A stretch of DNA of 32,033 nucleotides from Acidobacteriota bacterium (GCA_018606725.1 JAGYID010000093.1:1-32033), one strand, 5' to 3'; positions 1,113 through 20,948 are shown, numbered from the stretch's first letter. Notes: a model not told the origin generated them from the letters alone. Numbers and translations are program-made.

Positions 1113-1545
1113 GACGACCTCGATCGAGCGGCGGGGGGTGCTGACCTGGCTCATCCGCGGGTTCCTGGCGATCTGGGCGCTCGGCGCCGGCGTCCTCGGC
1201 ATCTCGTTCCTGAAGGCACCGTCGTCGGAGAAGCGGCCCGGCGAGCGGCAGCTGCGCTGCGGCAGCTTCTCGACGCTGGCGATCGGCGAGGCGCGCCTGG
1301 TCCGTCACGGGGCCGAGCCGCTATTCGTGGTGCGGGTCTCCGACTCGCAGGTCACCGCCGTCTCGGCGGTGTGCACCCATCTGCGCTGCGTCTTGAAGTG
1401 GGATGGCGACAAGGGCACCTTCCAGTGCCCCTGCCACAACGGCGCCTTCGATCGCGCCGGCATCGTTCTGTCCGGCCCGCCCAAGAAGCCTCTGCCGCAG
1501 TATCCGGCGGAGGTGCGGGCCGACGAGATCATCGTCCACACCTGA
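1099..1545 (+). CDS. Rieske 2Fe-2S protein of a cytochrome bc-type complex
   Basis: A 148-residue protein with one N-terminal membrane helix (about residues 14-38) and a periplasmic Rieske fold. Both cluster-binding boxes are intact: C92-T-H94-L-R-C97 and C110-P-C112-H113-N-G. They supply the two Cys and two His ligands plus the Cys pair for the stabilising disulfide. The arginine in the first box and the NG in the second differ from the common CTHLGC and CPCHGS forms. A purine-rich site (GGAGGGG, 1088-1094) lies 4 nt before the ATG. The gene lies directly before cytochrome b. In such complexes the Rieske protein takes the first electron from quinol at the Qo site and passes it to a c-type haem, here presumably on the multihaem proteins encoded next. 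Confidence 0.95.
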   Translation: MNGPETTSIERRGVLTWLIRGFLAIWALGAGVLGISFLKAPSSEKRPGERQLRCGSFSTLAIGEARLVRHGAEPLFVVRVSDSQVTAVSAVCTHLRCVLKWDGDKGTFQCPCHNGAFDRAGIVLSGPPKKPLPQYPAEVRADEIIVHT

Positions 1546-1567
1546 GAGATCCTGGCAGGAGGCCGAC

Positions 1568-2695
1568 GTGGCGGCGGATGCAGGCGGCAAACGGTCGATC
1601 CGGAGCTGGCTCGAGGCGCGGTTGAACCTGACCGAGATCGCCTCGTTCCTGAGCGTGTTCGGTCTGCTGCCCGCCGAGCTGGACACCCGCAAGCCGCTGC
1701 GCGAGGCGCTCGACGAGGCGTTGTCGCGGCCGCTGCCGTCGTATGCCCGCTGGCCCCGCATCATGGGGATCCTGTCGTTCATCCTGTTCCTGGTGCTCGC
1801 CGTCAGCGGCATGATGCTGGCGTTCTACTACCAGCCGACCGCCTCGGAGGCCTACGGCTCGGTCACCTCGATCGCCCGCGATGTCACCGGCGGGACTCTG
1901 GTGAACCAGGTGCACCGCTGGGCGGCGACGCTCCTGCTGCTCATCCTGGCGGCGCGTATCGTCCGTTTCTATTTTGGGGGCATGTACGGCCGTTCGCGCG
2001 AGGTGATCTGGATGCTGGCGATGGTCACCTTCGTGGTGGCGACCTTCGCCGATCTGACCGGGCGCCTGCTGCCGTGGGACGCCCGCGGCTACTGGACGAC
2101 GGTGCGGGCCCGCGAGGTCACCGATGCGCTGCCGCTCATCGGGCCGTTGTTCTCCTTCCTGGTCGGCGGCTCCGGCCTGGACTCGCTGGTTCTGACCCGC
2201 TTCTACATCCTGCACATCGTCGTCTGGCCGTTCCTGCTCCTGGCGCTGTTCTACCTGCACTTCTCCAGCGTGCGCCGCGTCGGCCTGTCGTCGGTCGCCG
2301 ACGGACCTGGCAGCCGCTCGCTCCGGGTGGTGCTCTACGATCTGTTGTTGATCGTGGTGTTCCTGATCGGGGCTTTGGCGACGCTGGCTATCTTCATGCC
2401 GCAATCTTTCGACGTCGCCGCCGACCCGTTCGCCACCCCGCCCGGGGCGCGCCCGCCCTGGTACCTGCTGGCGCCGCACGCGCTGCTCGAATCGTTCCCG
2501 CCCCTGGTGCCGCGCTTTCTGCGCGGCCTGTTCCTCGAAGCGTTGTTCGTGGCGGTGCTGCTGCTGCCGTTCCTCGACCGGCGGGCCGGCGAGCGGCCCG
2601 GGCGGCGACCGGCGGCGATCGCGCTGGGGGCGCTCGCCCTGCTCGTGTGGGCCGCGCTGATCTGGAAGGGCTGGCACCTGGAGGGGCCGCGATGA
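1568..2695 (+). CDS. Cytochrome b (b6/subunit IV fusion type) with altered haem ligand and Qo motif
   Basis: The GTG at 1568 is chosen because AGGAGG (1557-1562) precedes it by 5 nt and it follows the Rieske stop; longer starts would overlap the Rieske gene. The product has 375 residues and about seven membrane helices, corresponding to cytochrome b6 joined to subunit IV. Helix B has the first haem ligand H116 (VHRW), but the residue 14 further on, normally the second histidine, is R130. Helix D has both histidines, H216 and H231. The PWD motif before the Qo loop is present. The Qo-site PEWY motif reads P296-P-W-Y299, so its proton-accepting glutamate is absent. The protein should oxidise quinol with the Rieske partner, but a conventional Q-cycle is doubtful. 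The stop overlaps the next ATG (ATGA at 2692). Confidence 0.93.
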   Translation: MAADAGGKRSIRSWLEARLNLTEIASFLSVFGLLPAELDTRKPLREALDEALSRPLPSYARWPRIMGILSFILFLVLAVSGMMLAFYYQPTASEAYGSVTSIARDVTGGTLVNQVHRWAATLLLLILAARIVRFYFGGMYGRSREVIWMLAMVTFVVATFADLTGRLLPWDARGYWTTVRAREVTDALPLIGPLFSFLVGGSGLDSLVLTRFYILHIVVWPFLLLALFYLHFSSVRRVGLSSVADGPGSRSLRVVLYDLLLIVVFLIGALATLAIFMPQSFDVAADPFATPPGARPPWYLLAPHALLESFPPLVPRFLRGLFLEALFVAVLLLPFLDRRAGERPGRRPAAIALGALALLVWAALIWKGWHLEGPR

Positions 2696-3894
2696 AGCAC
2701 GCATCGGTGCTCCTGGCGGTCCTGTTCGCCGCGGCGACAGCCGCGGCCCGCGCCAACGAGGCGGGGATGTGCGGCGTCTGCCACTCCGACGTTCGCGTGC
2801 AGTTCGAGCAGGGGGTGCACCGGAGCGAGGGAATCGCCTGCACCACCTGCCATGGCGGTGACGTCGCCGCGACGACGGTCGAGGGCGCCCATCGCGCCGG
2901 CTTCCGGGGGGTGCCGCGGCGGCGCGACATCCCGGCGCTGTGCGCCTCCTGCCACGGCGACATTGCCCGCATGCGGCCGTACAACCTGCCGTCGGACCAG
3001 TTCGCCCTCTACCAGACGTCACAGCACGGCCGGCGGCTGGCCAAGGGCGACCCGAACGTGGCGGTCTGCACCGACTGTCACGGCGTGCACGAGATCCGCC
3101 GGCGCGACGATCCGCGGAGCCGCGTCTTCCCGCGCAACATCCCGTCCACCTGCGCCCGCTGCCACGGCGACGCCGCGCTGATGAAGAAGTACGGCCGCAC
3201 CGACAACCCGTACGCCGACTACGCCGCGGGGGTGCACGGCCGCGCCTTCCTGGAGAACGCCAGCGATGCGGCGCCCGAGTGCACGCGCTGCCACGGCAGC
3301 CACGGCGCCACGCCGCCCGGTCTCGGCGACGTCGAGAAGGTGTGCGGGCAGTGTCACGCCACGACGCGCCAGTACTTCCTCGAGGGGCCGCACAAGAAGG
3401 CGATGGACGACGCCGGGCTGCCGGAGTGCGCCGCCTGTCATCACAACCACAAGACGCCGCCGGCCGGGGTGGAGATGCTCGACAGCGTCTGTCTGCAGTG
3501 CCACGCCGCCGACTCGGAGCAGCAGAAGCTGGCGGGGACGATGAAGGGGATGTTCACCGACGCCGCCCGCGAGATCGACGAGGCCCGCCACCTGGTCGAG
3601 GAGGCGGCCCGCATCCCGCTTTACGTCGACGACTACCAGGCGCGTCTGGAGGACGCCCGCACGGCCCTCATGGAGTCGTTCCCGGTGATGCACGCCCTCG
3701 ACACGGGCCGGGTCGAGCCGCACACCCGGCGGGCCCGGTCGATCGCCGCCGAGGTCAGCGGCGAGATCCACGAGAAGCTGGCCGGTCGCTGGTGGCGCAA
3801 GGTCGGCCTCGGCCTGTTCTGGTTCTATCTCCTGCTGACGGCGGCGATCCTGGTTCGCGCCCGCCACCGGGCCGCCGCGGAAAGCCGCCACTGA
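2692..3894 (+). CDS. Nine-haem cytochrome c with C-terminal membrane anchor
   Basis: A 400-residue exported protein. A Sec signal peptide (about residues 1-22) is followed by nine CXXCH haem-c sites from residue 27 (CGVCH) to residue 267 (CLQCH). A haem-free, probably helical region comes next, then a single membrane anchor near residues 372-390 (GLFWFYLLLTAAIL). Many extra histidines between the motifs suggest bis-His ligation. The chosen ATG lies after GGAGGGG and overlaps the cytochrome b stop, so translation is coupled; the longer frame upstream is only a shadow of the cytochrome b gene. It probably replaces cytochrome c1/f as the acceptor for the Rieske protein and hands electrons on to the 18-haem protein. 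Multihaem subunits of this kind occur in Geobacter Cbc-type menaquinol oxidoreductases. Confidence 0.92.
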   Translation: MKHASVLLAVLFAAATAAARANEAGMCGVCHSDVRVQFEQGVHRSEGIACTTCHGGDVAATTVEGAHRAGFRGVPRRRDIPALCASCHGDIARMRPYNLPSDQFALYQTSQHGRRLAKGDPNVAVCTDCHGVHEIRRRDDPRSRVFPRNIPSTCARCHGDAALMKKYGRTDNPYADYAAGVHGRAFLENASDAAPECTRCHGSHGATPPGLGDVEKVCGQCHATTRQYFLEGPHKKAMDDAGLPECAACHHNHKTPPAGVEMLDSVCLQCHAADSEQQKLAGTMKGMFTDAAREIDEARHLVEEAARIPLYVDDYQARLEDARTALMESFPVMHALDTGRVEPHTRRARSIAAEVSGEIHEKLAGRWWRKVGLGLFWFYLLLTAAILVRARHRAAAESRH

Positions 3895-5711
3895 TGACGA
3901 CGCCCGGAGACCCCGGGGCCCCAGCAGGGCCCCTCGCCCGCTTGCGGGCGCGCCTCGCCTCCGCCCCGCTGCGCACCGCCGGCTTCGCCGCCGCGCTGCT
4001 CGTGGCCATCGGCATCGTCGCCACCGGCACCGCGATGGAGGTCAGCAGCCGGCCCCGCTTCTGCGGCTCCTGCCACATCATGGCGCCGTATTACGAGTCG
4101 TGGAAGGACTCGTCGCACAAGAACATCGCCTGCGTCGAATGCCACATCCCGCCGGGCGTCACCGCCGAGCTGCGCAAGAAGTACGAGGCGCTGTCGATGG
4201 TGGCGCGCTACTTCACCGGCACGTACGGCACCAACCCCTGGACCGAGATCGACGACGCCGCCTGCCTGCGCTGCCACGAGCGGCGCCTGCTGATCGGCAA
4301 GGAGCTGATCGGCGATGTGCTGTTCGACCACGCCGCCCACCTGGTCGAGATGCGGCGCGGCAAGACGCTGCGCTGCACCTCCTGCCACTCACAGATCGTC
4401 CAGGGAAGCCACATCGCCGTGACCACGTCGACCTGCATCCTGTGTCACTTCAAGGGGCAGGTCGCGGGGTTCGGCACGGCGCGCTGCACCCTGTGCCATC
4501 ACGTCCCCGACAAAGTCGTCAAGGCGGGCAGCACCACCTTCAATCACGCCGATGCATCGCGCTTCGGGATGGACTGTACCTGGTGCCACGCCCGGCCGGA
4601 GGGCAGCGACGGCGAGGTGCCGCGCGAGCGCTGCGTGACCTGCCACAACCAGGCGGCCCGCCTGGAGAAGTACGGCGACACGGACCTGCTGCACCGCAAG
4701 CACGTCACCGAGCACAAGGTCGACTGTCTCGACTGCCACCTGTCGATCCAGCACGTCGCCCCGGCCCGGGTCGAGGCGGCCGCCGCCCGCATCGAGTCGG
4801 CGGCCTCCGCCTGCCGCTCGTGCCACGCCGCCGGGCATTCGCCGCAGCTCAGCCTGTACACGGGGACGGGGGGACGCGGTGTTACGCCGATGCCCAGTCC
4901 GATGTTCGAGGCTGGCGTGCGCTGCGAGGGCTGCCACATCACCCTGCCCGGCCACGGCGGCGCGGTCAACCGCGCCTCGGACGTCGCCTGCATGGCCTGC
5001 CACGGCCCGAAGTACCGCGCCATCTACATGTCGTGGAAGGACGGCGCCGCCAGCCGGGTCGCCGCCCTGCGCCGCCAGGTCGACGAAACGGCGCGCGCCC
5101 TCGGCGGCGCCCCGCCGGCGGCGTTCGCCGACGCGCGTCACAACTTCGATCTGGTGGCGGCCGGCCGCGGCGTCCACAACATCGGCTACGCCTACGCCCT
5201 GCTGCGCCGCTCGCACGACGATCTGAACGCGGCGCGCCGGTCGCGCGGTCTGGCGCCGCTGCCGACGCCGTGGAAGGAGGCGCCCTTCCAGTCGGCCTGC
5301 CTGGCGTGCCACGAGGGGATCGAGGCACAGCGCGGCGAAATCTTCGGTCGCGCCTTCGCCCACGAGCCGCACGTCGTGGGGGCGAAGCTCGACTGCGCGA
5401 ACTGCCATCGCCCGCACGAGGAGCGCCAGAAGGGGGAGAGCGTCCGCTTCGAGGCCTCGGGCTGCGAAGCCTGCCACCACCGGGCGTCGACGGGCGCGCC
5501 GGGCACGGCCGCCGGGGCCGGGGCCCCACCGGCCGACTGCCTGACCTGCCACGCCGGCATCCGCCAGAAAAAGGTCAAGAGTTTCCGCGGCGATTTCGAC
5601 CACGCCTTCCATCTGGACGAGGCCGGCCAGACCTGCGCCGACTGCCACGACCTGTCGTCGGCGCCGCCTCGCCTCAAGCAGGACACCTGCGCCGGCTGCC
5701 ACGAAGGCTGA
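3894..5711 (+). CDS. Eighteen-haem cytochrome c with NapC/NirT-like N-terminus
   Basis: A 605-residue protein starting at the ATG inside TGATG (the upstream stop and this start share one base). After a single N-terminal membrane helix (about residues 26-46) comes a NapC/NirT/NrfH-like segment: CGSCH at residue 57, a MAPYYESW stretch, then CVECH with nearby histidines. I count eighteen CXXCH motifs in all, the last (CAGCH) at the extreme C-terminus. NapC/NirT proteins take electrons from membrane quinol and relay them into the periplasm. Here the domain heads a long haem chain, so the protein could be a second quinol entry point or a wire from the bc-type complex to a terminal reductase or outer-membrane conduit. 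No terminal reductase or porin gene is visible in the window. Confidence 0.92.
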   Translation: MTTPGDPGAPAGPLARLRARLASAPLRTAGFAAALLVAIGIVATGTAMEVSSRPRFCGSCHIMAPYYESWKDSSHKNIACVECHIPPGVTAELRKKYEALSMVARYFTGTYGTNPWTEIDDAACLRCHERRLLIGKELIGDVLFDHAAHLVEMRRGKTLRCTSCHSQIVQGSHIAVTTSTCILCHFKGQVAGFGTARCTLCHHVPDKVVKAGSTTFNHADASRFGMDCTWCHARPEGSDGEVPRERCVTCHNQAARLEKYGDTDLLHRKHVTEHKVDCLDCHLSIQHVAPARVEAAAARIESAASACRSCHAAGHSPQLSLYTGTGGRGVTPMPSPMFEAGVRCEGCHITLPGHGGAVNRASDVACMACHGPKYRAIYMSWKDGAASRVAALRRQVDETARALGGAPPAAFADARHNFDLVAAGRGVHNIGYAYALLRRSHDDLNAARRSRGLAPLPTPWKEAPFQSACLACHEGIEAQRGEIFGRAFAHEPHVVGAKLDCANCHRPHEERQKGESVRFEASGCEACHHRASTGAPGTAAGAGAPPADCLTCHAGIRQKKVKSFRGDFDHAFHLDEAGQTCADCHDLSSAPPRLKQDTCAGCHEG

Positions 5712-17026: not shown

Positions 17027-17172
17027 GGCAGACAGCAGGCTCGTCCCCCGGCAGTTGACAGGCGTTGGAGGCCAACAGGTGTGTCGCGATCCGTCGCGGC
17101 TCCATCCAATCTCCCGGACGCTTCGCCGTGTTTCTCGTGCCATACAGCACGCTATGTGTATCGGATATTCGA

Positions 17173-17195
17173 GAACTAGATAATCCTAGTTCGGC
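17173..17195 (+). other. Left cassette junction with palindrome (possible attI)
   Basis: GTTCGGC at 17189-17195 is the exact complement of the R'' box ending the first cassette (17675-17681) and so marks the recombination point. It overlaps a perfect hairpin, GAACTAG (17173-17179) and CTAGTTC (17186-17192). No attC-like long stem lies upstream. This may therefore be an attI-type site or the remains of one; attI sites have little sequence consensus, so this stays tentative. Confidence 0.45.
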
Positions 17196-17224
17196 GGACG
17201 AAGTCGGAGCGCCTTGGAAACCCC

Positions 17225-17635
17225 ATGACTGAACTCAGGAGCAGGCTCGAACCACTCGCTCGTAAGGCTGGTCTCAGTTTTGGGGATAACGTCCGTGTGC
17301 AGCGTATCCCCGTCACCGAAGCAGCTGGGGTTGCGGGGATGGCCGGCCAGATTTTCGGCTTTACGACTCCATCGGCTACTCATATCGAAGTCATCGGTGA
17401 AGTTACCGATGACTTCGCGGTAAATGTCCACATGGCCGAACGCAAGGAGGCCTTCTGGTTCGCCGCAAATCTTCTGGAGTTTGTGGACCATGGGCCAGGT
17501 ACGGAGATCACCCTTCAGGGTGTTGCGAAGAAGTGGGCGCGGCGAGAGACAGGCGAGTGGGAAGAGCGTCCTCAGGCCCCATCGACGGGGGGCATTCTCC
17601 GGCGCGCCCTTCGCAAACTAGGTTGGGCAAAATAG
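17225..17635 (+). CDS. Cassette 1: conserved-looking hypothetical protein
   Basis: A 136-residue soluble protein with no signal peptide or membrane helix, encoded in the first cassette (17190-17761). I do not recognise a named family. The central part (VAGMAGQIFGFTTPS, HIEVIGEVTDDFAVNVHM) alternates like beta strands, followed by FWFAANLLEFVDHGPGTEI and a basic C-terminus (RRALRKLGWAK). The sense of the reading frame, its position after a cassette junction and its stop 39 bp before an attC R'' box support a real gene. The ribosome site is weak (TTGGAAAC before the ATG). Function unknown. Confidence 0.72.
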   Translation: MTELRSRLEPLARKAGLSFGDNVRVQRIPVTEAAGVAGMAGQIFGFTTPSATHIEVIGEVTDDFAVNVHMAERKEAFWFAANLLEFVDHGPGTEITLQGVAKKWARRETGEWEERPQAPSTGGILRRALRKLGWAK

Positions 17636-17652
17636 TTCGGTGTCACACCGAA
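17636..17652 (+). other. Hairpin directly after the cassette 1 stop codon
   Basis: TTCGGTG (17636-17642), loop TCA, then CACCGAA (17646-17652): a perfect 7-bp stem starting on the base after the TAG stop. There is no T-tract, so termination is uncertain. It lies outside the attC stem that follows. Confidence 0.35.
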
Positions 17653-17674
17653 GGGCGAGAAGGGGTCACGGGCC

Positions 17675-17767
17675 GCCGAACAACCGGCTGAAGCTGGCGG
17701 CGCGCGGCAGGTCGGTGGCGGAGTCGTTGCGACGCACGCGCGCCGCAGCTTAGCCGGGGCGTTATGC
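17675..17767 (+). other. attC-like recombination site of cassette 1
   Basis: Ninety-three bp. The R'' box is GCCGAAC (17675-17681) and the R' box is GTTATGC (17761-17767). The inner arms pair over about 21 bp: CCGGCT, then AAGCTG, then CGGCGCGCG on the 5' side match the complement on the 3' side. The 5' arm has two unpaired G residues, as expected for extrahelical bases that set strand choice. The variable loop is about 30 nt. The next gene starts 25 bp after the R' box. Confidence 0.82.
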
Positions 17768-17791
17768 GTAGCGCCTTGTAGGAATGCGCCG

Positions 17792-18607
17792 ATGTCCGAT
17801 TTGAGATCAATCGACAAGAGGAAACTGGAGAAGCTGTTCCAGATGGGCGGCGGCTACGTTCTGGACTTCTCGAACCGGACGCTGGCTGAGTTCGTCGAGG
17901 AAAGCACCGGCCGCGACATTTACGACGCGCGATACGACTACGCCAGCGGTTCCAAGGCGAACCGCCTTCGCGCCTTCTGGACGCAGGAACCGAACCATCT
18001 CGTGGGCAAGCTGCTCAACGACCTTCTTGAGTACTGCCGGCCGGCAGCGGGTGATCCTGATCGTGACCGCCTGTTCGAGGAATGCGAGCGTATCGCGGCA
18101 CGCCTGCTCCAAAGCGCTCATGTGGACGGGCTGGAAGCCATCACGCCGGAGGGAACCGAGCGCGGCTTCGAAGTGCTTGCGAGGGCCGTACGCGATTCCA
18201 TCGAAAACAACGAACCGGAAGCAGGTCTCGACCGGTTGCATACGTTCGTCACGAAGCTAATCCGAACCCTATCGGAGAGGCGCGGCGTCACCATCGACAG
18301 GGACAAGCCGCTCCACAGCATCTTCGGCGAATACGTGAAGGCACTCCGCGCAGCCGGGCTCATAGAATCGGAGATGACCGAACGTATTCTGAAGTCCAGC
18401 ATCAGCACGATGGAAGCGTTCAACCGCGTCCGCAACGACACGAGTTTCGCTCACGACACTCCCACGCTCAACTATGATGAGAGTCTCCTCATCTTCAATC
18501 ACGTCTGCAGCGCGGTTCGGTTCATCAGGGCGCTCGAGTCGCGCGCGGCGAGGGCGCGGTCCGCCGCCCCACTTCAAGGGGCCATCGATGATGAGATCCC
18601 GTTCTGA
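17792..18607 (+). CDS. Cassette 2: Abi-type protein with HEPN-like C-terminus (candidate phage defence)
   Basis: A 271-residue soluble protein encoded in the second cassette (17762-18703), with TAGGA about 8 nt before the ATG. The N-terminal part (FQMGGGYVLDFSNRTLAEFVEEST, then KANRLRAFW) matches my memory of abortive-infection family proteins of the AbiJ/Abi_C type. The C-terminal half is helical and ends with RNDTSFAHD followed by LNYDESLLIFNHVCSAVRFI. The R-N-x5-H pattern is the HEPN ribonuclease signature, found in the Abi_C domain. Such proteins are thought to cut or sense RNA on phage attack and stop growth. Defence function is inferred from the family and from the cassette setting. The stop lies 6 bp before the R'' box of the next attC. 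Confidence 0.75.
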   Translation: MSDLRSIDKRKLEKLFQMGGGYVLDFSNRTLAEFVEESTGRDIYDARYDYASGSKANRLRAFWTQEPNHLVGKLLNDLLEYCRPAAGDPDRDRLFEECERIAARLLQSAHVDGLEAITPEGTERGFEVLARAVRDSIENNEPEAGLDRLHTFVTKLIRTLSERRGVTIDRDKPLHSIFGEYVKALRAAGLIESEMTERILKSSISTMEAFNRVRNDTSFAHDTPTLNYDESLLIFNHVCSAVRFIRALESRAARARSAAPLQGAIDDEIPF

Positions 18608-18613
18608 CAGCAC

Positions 18614-18709
18614 GCATAACTACGGCATGGACCCCGCGGCGGGCGTCGGGTTCAGGCGATGCACTCGCGTCGGGCGTATGCCCGCCGCGGGTTATGCCGG
18701 GCGTTCTGA
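18614..18709 (+). other. attC-like recombination site of cassette 2
   Basis: Ninety-six bp. The R'' box is GCATAAC (18614-18620), the exact complement of the R' box at the left end of this cassette (17761-17767). The R' box is GTTCTGA (18703-18709). The stem pairs CGGCAT and then the GC-rich CGCGGCGGGC, with unequal unpaired bases (GGA against AA) in between on the two arms. The centre is a variable loop of about 35 nt. Confidence 0.8.
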
Positions 18710-18719
18710 GAGGTGAGGC

Positions 18720-19214
18720 GTGATTAACCTGGACACGGGGAGGCACCCTTCCCATCTTGAAGTTCCTTACTCGCCTCGTGGTCGATGGTCTGTACTCATG
18801 ATTTCTCTCCTCCTCACCGCGCTCACGTTTGGCGCAGAGAGTCCGCGGCCGACCAAAGCAGGCGAGCCGTTACAAGAATGGGACGTTCTCGCCGAATCTG
18901 GAATCGTCCGGTTCGTTTACGTGTCGCCTGATGGCCTCAGGGACAAGTTCTTCGTTGCTCAGTTGTTGCAGGCTATCGCGTCGAAGGCTGCTCGCACTCT
19001 ACCCATCGAGATCCTCCTCTTTGACGACCGACGGTATACGCCGCGCGCTTTTCCCATGACCGACGCCCAGATGCTTCATTGGAGGGCGCGCTACAACAAG
19101 AACCCGAACAGCAAATTCGAGGAATTCGTCTGGATCTCGGTGACCAACTCCAAGACTTCGCCGCCGAAGCTCAAGGAGACTCGTGCGAAGATCAGGCCGG
19201 GGTTCGCTGAATAG
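18720..19214 (+). CDS. Cassette 3: exported or anchored hypothetical protein
   Basis: A 164-residue product from the GTG at 18720, 11 bp after the R' box, with GAGG nearby upstream. It has a basic leader followed by a hydrophobic segment (WSVLMISLLLTALTFGAES) that could be a signal peptide or anchor. The ATG at 18798 would leave a signal with no positive residues, so GTG is preferred. The rest (LAESGIVRFVYVSPDGLRDKFFV, IEILLFDDRRYTPRAFPMTDAQMLHW) looks like an alternating alpha/beta domain with a charged tail. I do not recognise the family. The stop is 2 bp before the R'' box of the next attC. Confidence 0.68.
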   Translation: MINLDTGRHPSHLEVPYSPRGRWSVLMISLLLTALTFGAESPRPTKAGEPLQEWDVLAESGIVRFVYVSPDGLRDKFFVAQLLQAIASKAARTLPIEILLFDDRRYTPRAFPMTDAQMLHWRARYNKNPNSKFEEFVWISVTNSKTSPPKLKETRAKIRPGFAE

Positions 19215-19216
19215 CC

Positions 19217-19319
19217 GGCTAACAAGCGCATGCAGCGGACGCACTCGCGCGTCACGCCCCGTGCTAGAAGAGCGCACGGGTCGCGCCGCGCGGCGCGCCG
19301 CTGATGCGCAGCGTCAGCC
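19217..19319 (+). other. attC-like recombination site of cassette 3
   Basis: About 103 bp. The R'' box is GGCTAAC (19217-19223), followed by AA, then GCGCAT, an unpaired G, and CAGCGG. The 3' arm gives the complement of GCGCAT and CAGCGG without the extra G, and the R' box is GTCAGCC (19313-19319). The first part (TAACAA, then GCGCAT) is very like known attC 5' ends. The R' box has GTC instead of GTT. The same change occurs in the R'' box of the next cassette (GGTTGAC), which pairs with it. Confidence 0.75.
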
Positions 19320-19333
19320 GCCTGAGGAGCGAG

Positions 19334-19945
19334 ATGCACAGCGGTGACTGGCGGTGGCTGGCTGTGGCCCTGCTCACACTGGCGATGACCGCGTGTGGCG
19401 GCACGTCGCGAACAAATGCGCTTCCGGAGATCACCTTGGAAACCGATGAAGGTTTCTACGACCTCGTGTTTCGCATTCGCGACTACGGGCAGCGGGCGGA
19501 CGGCACGACAATGTTTCGAGCCTACGGGATTCATGAAGGCCAGACCGTTGGGGTCACGGTTGTACTGGGCTCAGCGTGGGAACGGGTATCACTTGGCGCC
19601 GACCTGCCCAGCGCCTTCCAGGGCACGGTCGAGCTCCGATCGCTCGGTGTCGAGAGCGACGCACTCCTCAATGTGATGGACCAGCTCTACGGTACGAAGC
19701 TCCATCCCAAGGCGATGAAGCCCGCGACAGTGTTTACTGGCATCACGCTCGAGGGAAATCCTCGCGATGTGAGCCGCGGTGTCGTCAAGATCAAGCTTTT
19801 CTTTGAGCCCGATGACGAAGCACGGTATGCAGAGCTCTATGCGAACATCGACTTGCCGGGAGGCAAGCTCTACGTAAACGAGAAGGACATTGACTATCGC
19901 ACGCCAGTCATCAAGGCACTCGCGAGGCCGCGCGCCGGCGGTTGA
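19334..19945 (+). CDS. Cassette 4: lipoprotein of unknown function
   Basis: A 203-residue protein starting at the ATG after GAGGAG (4 nt). The N-terminus has a lipoprotein signal (WLAVALLTLAMTAC) with the modified cysteine near residue 20, so it should be membrane-anchored. The mature part (ITLETDEGFYDLVFRIRDYGQRADGTTMFRAYGIHEGQTVGVTVVL) is rich in predicted beta strands, and its C-terminus is basic. I do not recognise the family. The TGA stop lies inside the R'' box of the following attC, the closest coupling of gene and site in the array. Confidence 0.72.
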   Translation: MHSGDWRWLAVALLTLAMTACGGTSRTNALPEITLETDEGFYDLVFRIRDYGQRADGTTMFRAYGIHEGQTVGVTVVLGSAWERVSLGADLPSAFQGTVELRSLGVESDALLNVMDQLYGTKLHPKAMKPATVFTGITLEGNPRDVSRGVVKIKLFFEPDDEARYAELYANIDLPGGKLYVNEKDIDYRTPVIKALARPRAGG

Positions 19946-20038
19946 CTACCGCATCAACCCGTCGTTCTGCCGCGTCACGCCCCCGGCGTCCGCAAGGGTC
20001 GCGCCGCTCCAGCCCGCGGGTTGTGCGGGGCGTTGGCC
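19940..20038 (+). other. attC-like recombination site of cassette 4
   Basis: About 99 bp. The R'' box is GGTTGAC (19940-19946), followed by TA, then CCGCA, an unpaired T, and CAACCCG. The 3' arm complements CCGCA and CAACCCG without the extra base. The R' box is GTTGGCC (20032-20038). The inner stem beyond these 12 bp is weak and the loop is long. Confidence 0.72.
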
Positions 20039-20059
20039 GACACCTCCAGAGGAGAACGC

Positions 20060-20641
20060 ATGAGAAACGATCTAGAGCCTGACCACGTGCCTGCGGAGTT
20101 GCTGCCATACTTCAATACCCATCGTTCCAGCTATCTGTTTGCGGCTGTCACAGTCCTGGTGTGGGTGGCGGTGGCGATTCCGTTTGTCGTCGGGCTTGGA
20201 GCCTTGCTTGCCCCGAAGAGCAAGACGCTATCTCGTGCCGCGACGCTGCTATCAGCGGGCGGCATTCTTCTCCTTGGCTTTGCCATGTTTACCTTTGTTG
20301 GTGCGTTTATCGCTATTGTGGCGGCAGGTGACCTAGCTCCGACCGCTGCTGAAGCGACGTATCAGGCCACAATTTGGAGCAACCTCTCGTTCTTCCTCAC
20401 AGACCCGGGCCTAATGACCTTGGGCGCCGGCCAGTTTCTGTTCGCATGGCTCGCCTGGGGCAGCGGTGTCTTACCAAGGTCCGTATCCCTGGTTGGCTTT
20501 ATCGGGGGCCTTGCCGGCCTACTCACACTGGCCGTCTATCAGACAAGCCTGCTTGCTCTGGTTCAAATCGGAGCGTTTGCAATCTGGGGCATTGCCACCG
20601 GAATTGTCCTGCTCCGCCACAAACCTGGCCCGTTGGCGTGA
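20060..20641 (+). CDS. Cassette 5: multi-pass membrane protein of unknown function
   Basis: A 193-residue protein with GAGGAG before its ATG, starting 21 bp after the last R' box. A short polar N-terminus (EPDHVPAELLPYFNTHRSSY) is followed by about five hydrophobic helices, for example LFAAVTVLVWVAVAIPFVVGLG and VSLVGFIGGLAGLLTLAVY. A loose resemblance to DUF4386-type membrane proteins is possible, but I would not assign it. By position it is the cargo of a fifth cassette. No complete attC follows; TGAGGCGATGCAAGAGCGG at the stop could be a truncated attC 5' arm, which would mark the eroded end of the array. Confidence 0.7.
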   Translation: MRNDLEPDHVPAELLPYFNTHRSSYLFAAVTVLVWVAVAIPFVVGLGALLAPKSKTLSRAATLLSAGGILLLGFAMFTFVGAFIAIVAAGDLAPTAAEATYQATIWSNLSFFLTDPGLMTLGAGQFLFAWLAWGSGVLPRSVSLVGFIGGLAGLLTLAVYQTSLLALVQIGAFAIWGIATGIVLLRHKPGPLA

Positions 20642-20658
20642 GGCGATGCAAGAGCGGT

Positions 20659-20751
20659 CCGGCCCATGACGCCTACCTCGCGGCGCGCTACGGCAGCGAA
20701 TTCGACCACTACGCGCGCCGGACGAGCAAGTTGGTGCCGCTGCTCTACTGA
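20659..20751 (+). pseudogene. C-terminal fragment of an isoprenylcysteine methyltransferase (ICMT)-like protein
   Basis: The stretch HDAYLAARYGSEFDHYARR, then TSKLVPLLY and a stop, matches the usual end of ICMT/NnrU-like membrane methyltransferases, where a YL-x-R-x-G-x-x-Y-x-x-Y pattern precedes the C-terminus. Nothing of the preceding membrane domain is present; the upstream sequence in this frame is a shadow of the cassette 5 gene. It appears to be a tail left by recombination or deletion at the end of the array. Confidence 0.5.
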
Positions 20752-20768
20752 TAGGTCAGAGGATTCTA

Positions 20769-20924
20769 ATGGGGCCATCACTCCTCAGCCGCAAACCAAC
20801 CGACCGAGACTATGACGCCATGCTTGATACCCTGGTACTGGCGTTTGCCAATGATCCGGTGTGGGGCGGGTGGGCGTTTCCTGACCACGATCACGCCATT
20901 GAACAGCGGCGGGCCGATGGTTGA
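20769..20924 (+). pseudogene. N-terminal fragment of a GNAT acetyltransferase
   Basis: A 51-codon frame from the ATG at 20769 (RDYDAMLDTLVLAFANDPVWG, then GWAFPDHDHAIEQRRADG and stop). The pattern LDTLVLAFANDPVW...FPD is the typical start of a GNAT-family N-acetyltransferase of about 200 residues. The acetyl-CoA-binding part is missing, and the next gene, a hydrolase, begins 24 bp later. It is probably a truncated remnant rather than a functional small protein. Confidence 0.5.
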
Positions 20925-20948
20925 CAAGATGTGGCGAAAGCCTTGCCG

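Follow-up and report, generated by a model that had tools for sequence, protein, structure and literature searches.

How does an array of gene cassettes come to stand in a place where no integron integrase adjoins it? The question is raised by the window, that is, the whole stretch of 32,033 nucleotides that was analysed (contig C28 of the genome). Reviews and tools describe attI as a single site adjoining intI and ascribe CALINs to rearrangement, to the degradation of integrons or to insertion off target (PMC8618304, PMC9024848). An array without integrase commonly passes for debris or for cassettes gone astray. I argue here for a different reading, beginning with the array itself.

The initial annotation pointed to four attC-like palindromes of 93-103 bp with R''/R' boxes:

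17675-17767, plus strand: attC 1, 93 bp (covariance model E 7.4e-18; fold z -4.4)
18614-18709, plus strand: attC 2, 96 bp (covariance model E 6.6e-6; fold z -3.7)
19217-19319, plus strand: attC 3, 103 bp (covariance model E 9.4e-10; fold z -6.7)
19940-20038, plus strand: attC 4, 99 bp (covariance model E 3.5e-7; fold z -2.7)

An independent covariance model, trained on 12 attCs that were all taken from other genomes to prevent circularity, returned the four of them at exactly the bounds claimed (E 7e-18 to 7e-6), the next best match in the window having E 0.38. Their bottom-strand folds beat dinucleotide shuffles, the weakest being that of attC 4, which 3 of 200 shuffles equalled. A gathering scan with Rfam found no match to attC, a result that is neutral for or against. 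A screen for hairpins only is noisy in GC-rich DNA, and the case is therefore carried by the covariance model and by the complementarity of the boxes that bound each cassette. AttC 1 closely resembles the attCs of a related genome, G003, and attC 3, whose R' starts with GTC and not GTT, is 89% identical over 105 bp to an attC on contig C103 of the same genome.

The sites delimit the following units:

17190-17761, plus strand: cassette 1, gene at 17225-17635 (136 aa, without known family)
17762-18703, plus strand: cassette 2, gene at 17792-18607 (271 aa, Abi_C)
18704-19313, plus strand: cassette 3, gene at 18720-19214 (164 aa, without known family)
19314-20032, plus strand: cassette 4, gene with probable start at 19334, ending at 19945 (without known family)
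20033-20650, plus strand: probable fifth cassette without attC, gene at 20060-20641 (DUF4386 membrane protein)

The left box of cassette 1, GTTCGGCGG, is the exact 9-bp complement of its own R'', CCGCCGAAC, and the boxes of cassette 2, GTTATGCGT and ACGCATAAC, are just as exact over 9 bp. Those of cassette 4, GTCAGCCGC and GCGGTTGAC, pair along 10 bases, one of the pairs being a wobble, and have the GTC variant in common. For these three cassettes the complementarity described in the initial annotation holds. Cassette 3 is the sole case among the four to deviate: its left box GTTCTGAGA and its R'' CCGGCTAAC (GTTCTGA against GGCTAAC) pair at the core only, a mismatch (18703-19223) that could stem from the loss of a cassette or from a deletion of a non-standard kind. 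Past GTT/AAC, six bases were compared in 26 internal cassettes, drawn from several genomes: on average 5.4 of them match, while none of 2000 shuffles exceeds 3.9. Folds, model matches and box complements agree, and the window holds a true integron cassette array, as had been supposed.

What the cassettes carry is for the most part unfamiliar. The protein of cassette 2 has a C-terminal abortive-infection domain (Abi_C, PF14355, E 5.7e-12). The gene of cassette 1 found nothing in Pfam, NCBIfam or PADLOC, and searches of the cassette genes with PADLOC and NCBIfam gave no match. The start of the gene in cassette 4 is probably at 19334, since the ATG listed for it, at 19304, falls within attC 3. 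A scan of the array for sigma-70 promoters came up empty, and so no cassette promoter is claimed. The fifth gene starts at the R' of attC 4 and matches PF14329 (E 3.3e-7, above the cut-off), and the independent covariance model finds no attC downstream of it. Here the right end of the array is eroded: after this gene come only short ORF scraps (20650-20930), which resemble remnants of truncated genes and have no match in Pfam.

At its left end, the array is headed by a sequence that the initial annotation missed and that proves more informative:

17130-17191, plus strand: attI copy, array head, with repeat unit CACGCTATGTGTATCGGATATT and core CGAGAACTAGATAATCCTAGTT

Its crossover point, G/TT, lies at 17189/17190, and weaker similarity begins near 17114. 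Over 62 bp it agrees at 94% with the attI found 3' of intI on contig C40, and over its last 53 bp at 88% with a copy on C103, the homology stopping at G/TT, where cassettes start. In an ungapped comparison with the attI of C40, the array head has an identity of 0.95, and the best of the 328 other 44-mers in the window that end in GTT has 0.39. Judged by this likeness, the head of the array is a copy of the resident integron's attI, not a naked GTT or a bare cluster of attCs. The array thus has at its head the attI of a complete integron and lacks the intI that should adjoin it. With at least two attCs and no integron integrase nearby, it falls within the definition of a CALIN.

The initial annotation also spoke of an array without visible integrase. 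This holds for the window contig, where neither tblastn nor a family search finds intI, but not for the genome, since an intact intI is present on C40. It encodes the only integron integrase over the family cut-off in a search of the whole genome (TIGR02249, 473 bits against a cut-off of 265). The protein is colinear with the structure of Vibrio IntI4 (2a3v, E 2e-89) in an alignment that spans residues 33-343 and includes the HxLRH, GH and Y motifs. By these catalytic residues and by the extra IntI domain, it is predicted with confidence to be an IntI-specific tyrosine recombinase. Its relatives in a scan of a contig database are distant, up to 71% identical, and come from many phyla. Contig C40 of this draft genome is 3.7 kb long. 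Its attI lies about 660 bp 3' of intI on the same strand, the first cassette opens with GTTAGATTG, to which CAATCTAAC, its R'' at the end of the contig, is exactly complementary. Within G000:C40 1446-3219, where G000 is the genome of the window, intI is directed toward attI and the array, on the strand of the cassettes, and a gene for a small predicted lipoprotein stands between intI and attI. The layout is that of Treponema, where intI is transcribed toward attI (PMC3607928). G000:C111 and G000:C224 encode further tyrosine recombinases, weakly similar to IntI (63-75 bits, under the cut-off), two of them adjoining on C111.

The window array is not alone. There are five arrays led by attI in the genome, on C28 (the window), C40, C103, C196 and C23, and a single intI. 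In all five the first cassette starts exactly at the G/TT of attI and has 9-bp box complements; this includes C103, where such a cassette follows an attI that is 84-88% identical, depending on the query. The arrays on C196 and C23 were located by searching the genome with the attC model, whose matches up to E 3e-4 all fall within the five arrays. Their attIs are more diverged and built on the same plan, with CGCTATGTTTA..GGATTAG-type repeats and then CAGAACT....TAATTTGAGTT. Compared with the others over 41 bp, they reach an identity of just 54-71%, so the IntI of C40 may not use them. A search of the genome with a sequence model of attI matched the five loci and found no empty attI. The five attIs have different upstream flanks, and C28 and C103 agree with the rest of the genome in tetranucleotide use. 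The first attC of the C23 array is split by a gene for an IS110-family transposase (G000:C23 3200-4550; PF02371, PF01548). Part of the IS110 family is known to insert into attC sites.

I propose that these arrays belong to a distributed integron, in which one integrase acts in trans on several attI platforms, and that the window array is docked at a second-site attI. From the sequences, this seems to me likely. IntI made from C40, the sole source of integrase, would act in trans, recombining any copy of attI with the attC that free cassettes present as a folded bottom strand. Strand exchange would take place between G and TT at the remote attIs, and one integrase would thereby feed several chromosomal platforms. 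The sequences themselves show copies of attI, cassettes that abut them exactly, attC structures, an intact IntI and a like layout in relatives. If one integrase does feed several attIs, then a genome could offer several "first cassette" positions simultaneously, and each would have a transcriptional context of its own.

The layout in relatives was sought in genomes that are all drafts. IntI is present in 23 of 41 genomes of the class; the array, where its side is visible, lies mostly 3' of intI, and a 3' position of attI is common to several genomes. BLAST with the attI DNA in 60 relatives gave no usable match, because attI differs between genera. The relatives were searched with each genome's own intI-linked attI and then with the attI model, which yielded 13 further copies of attI without intI, in seven genomes:

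G003: C8 and C22
G004: C36 (two copies) and C139
G005: C48, C18 and C54
G019: C309
G022: C140 and C73
G024: C24
G002: C22 (partial match; no intI was found in this genome)

The contigs that hold the copies examined have no match to intI at 1e-80. Support for the copies is uneven: the contig ends before an attC for C18 of G005, for C140 and C73 of G022 and for C139 of G004, and the box complements at the two sites on C36 of G004 have one mismatch or one missing base. Several of the arrays are interior to contigs of 59-855 kb, so these attI sites are not ends of an assembly. In four genomes with IntI (G028, G029, G034 and G036), a second copy of attI was not found. A candidate on C147 of G022 was rejected, being without core and GTT.

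An attI can also be found without prior knowledge of its sequence, through the complement of the R'' box of the first cassette. When the first cassette was located in this manner from its own R'' alone, a definition free of homology, the DNA before it ended in most cases in a core of the ..AATTnnn-GTT type. The box-complement test alone gave a further attI candidate on C4 of G024, in the interior of an 855-kb contig. Copies of attI have a mean identity of 0.64 within a genome, as against 0.42 between genomes. G019 has two intI genes (C61 and C98) with different attIs, and its intI-less attI on C309 resembles just one of them. The two sites in G004 (G004:C36 11332-11371 and 5143-5185, minus strand) are attI-like and in tandem, some 6 kb from one another, and cassettes follow both.

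Do cassettes move at sites that have no integrase beside them? One orthologous locus, C309 in G019 and C140 in G022, can be compared in two species. The 3.4-kb flank is 90% identical and both loci are headed by attI, and the sequences part a few bases into the first cassette, with nothing in common thereafter: the first cassettes differ. C22 of G003 and C54 of G005 have an upstream gene in common (86% over 1 kb), the synteny consisting of that gene only, and different cassettes. In G024, a cassette lies in a stretch, about 93% identical, that is common to the intI-linked array and the array on C24, with different neighbours. The window array itself is carried by no close relative. No homolog of its left neighbour, a TPR gene, was found in 14 relatives, and there are none in the class for the genes of cassettes 1 and 2. 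The observations of traffic, together with the likeness of attIs within a genome, would fit one integrase serving several attIs in trans. Recombination in trans, its current activity and the manner in which copies of attI spread are inferences.

The spread brings up a rival account. Suppose that a whole integron was duplicated or acquired, that it lost its intI, and that what is left is a fossil without cassette traffic. The stretch that copies have in common upstream of G/TT then bears on the matter. It extends 204 bp in G024, about to the end of intI, and 192 bp at C140 of G022, as expected after the loss of most of intI, and these longest stretches suggest duplications of that kind. In the genome of the window it is only 61 and 94 bp, in G003 86 bp and in G019 about 110 bp; intI of C40 is 660 bp away from its attI. 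The eroded right end of the window array suits a fossil, but its box complements are still exact, cassettes differ at orthologous loci without intI, and tblastn of the DNA surrounding the attIs of the window, of C103 and of the further intI-less sites that were examined found no fragment of intI. I think it improbable that the arrays are mere fossils. The route by degradation could nonetheless explain the origin of the sites while allowing their later use in trans.

Much less can be said for the two remaining accounts. IntI might have put cassettes at an attG, a site merely resembling the crossover point, where an array then grew, and such insertion is an accepted route to arrays without integrase (PMC8618304; PMC12444791). 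It would hardly produce a head that matches the intI-linked attI over 62 bp at 94%, repeats included, when no chance GTT site in the window exceeds 0.39, against 0.95 here. The identity of attI disfavours this account, and I hold it to be very improbable. Nor is there much prospect that the five attIs are one integron broken up in assembly, or parts of several strains binned together, a notion I would rate as scarcely credible. The genome is indeed a draft of 235 contigs, in which the arrays on C40, C103 and C196 lie at contig ends, and CALIN counts are known to come out too high in drafts (PMC9024848). The window array, however, lies within a contig of 32 kb and is flanked on either side by chromosomal DNA, and the flanks and tetranucleotide use described above speak against an artefact, as do the interior arrays of relatives and the intI-less locus that G019 and G022 have in common.

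A distributed integron of the kind proposed resembles several known systems and differs from each in some respect. Like a CALIN in the sense of IntegronFinder, the window array consists of tandem cassettes with attC sites and has no adjacent intI; the definition of a CALIN, however, includes no attI, and the usual reading is one of degradation, rearrangement or off-target insertion, whereas at the head of this array stands a copy of the resident attI. With a complete chromosomal integron it has in common attI, the G/TT crossover and cassettes, but there is no integrase in the window and there are five attIs to one intI. The closest precedent found is a cryptic prophage of Shewanella, in which a second array, without intI, begins with a copy of the resident attI. 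That is one case of two attIs in one prophage, whereas here a single genome has five, and seven related genomes show the pattern too, at unrelated loci. Cassettes of the Delta-attI type in mobile integrons also have attI sequence in addition to, and apart from, the primary attI, but there attI replaces the attC at the 3' end of a cassette, while here it forms a complete upstream platform at a separate locus (PMC12901181). No report of multiple or orphan attIs as a pattern of a genome or class was found in an open-access library. Five attIs to one intI, in an arrangement that recurs in relatives, runs counter to the textbook rule of one attI beside each integrase.

Taken a step further, the integron of this group is probably dispersed, though I say so with some reserve: one intI, several dedicated attI platforms at fixed positions, attIs alike within a genome, and turnover of cassettes far from intI. 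By the same token, many CALINs elsewhere may be platforms served in trans, filed as degraded because searches for attI are confined to class 1. If so, the category of CALIN needs to be split.

One further feature of the window may be mentioned for itself. At 1403-5711 in the window, a cytochrome b gene is followed by a gene for a large multihaem cytochrome c protein with NapC/NirT, c3 and c7 domains, and the two probably encode a respiratory complex.
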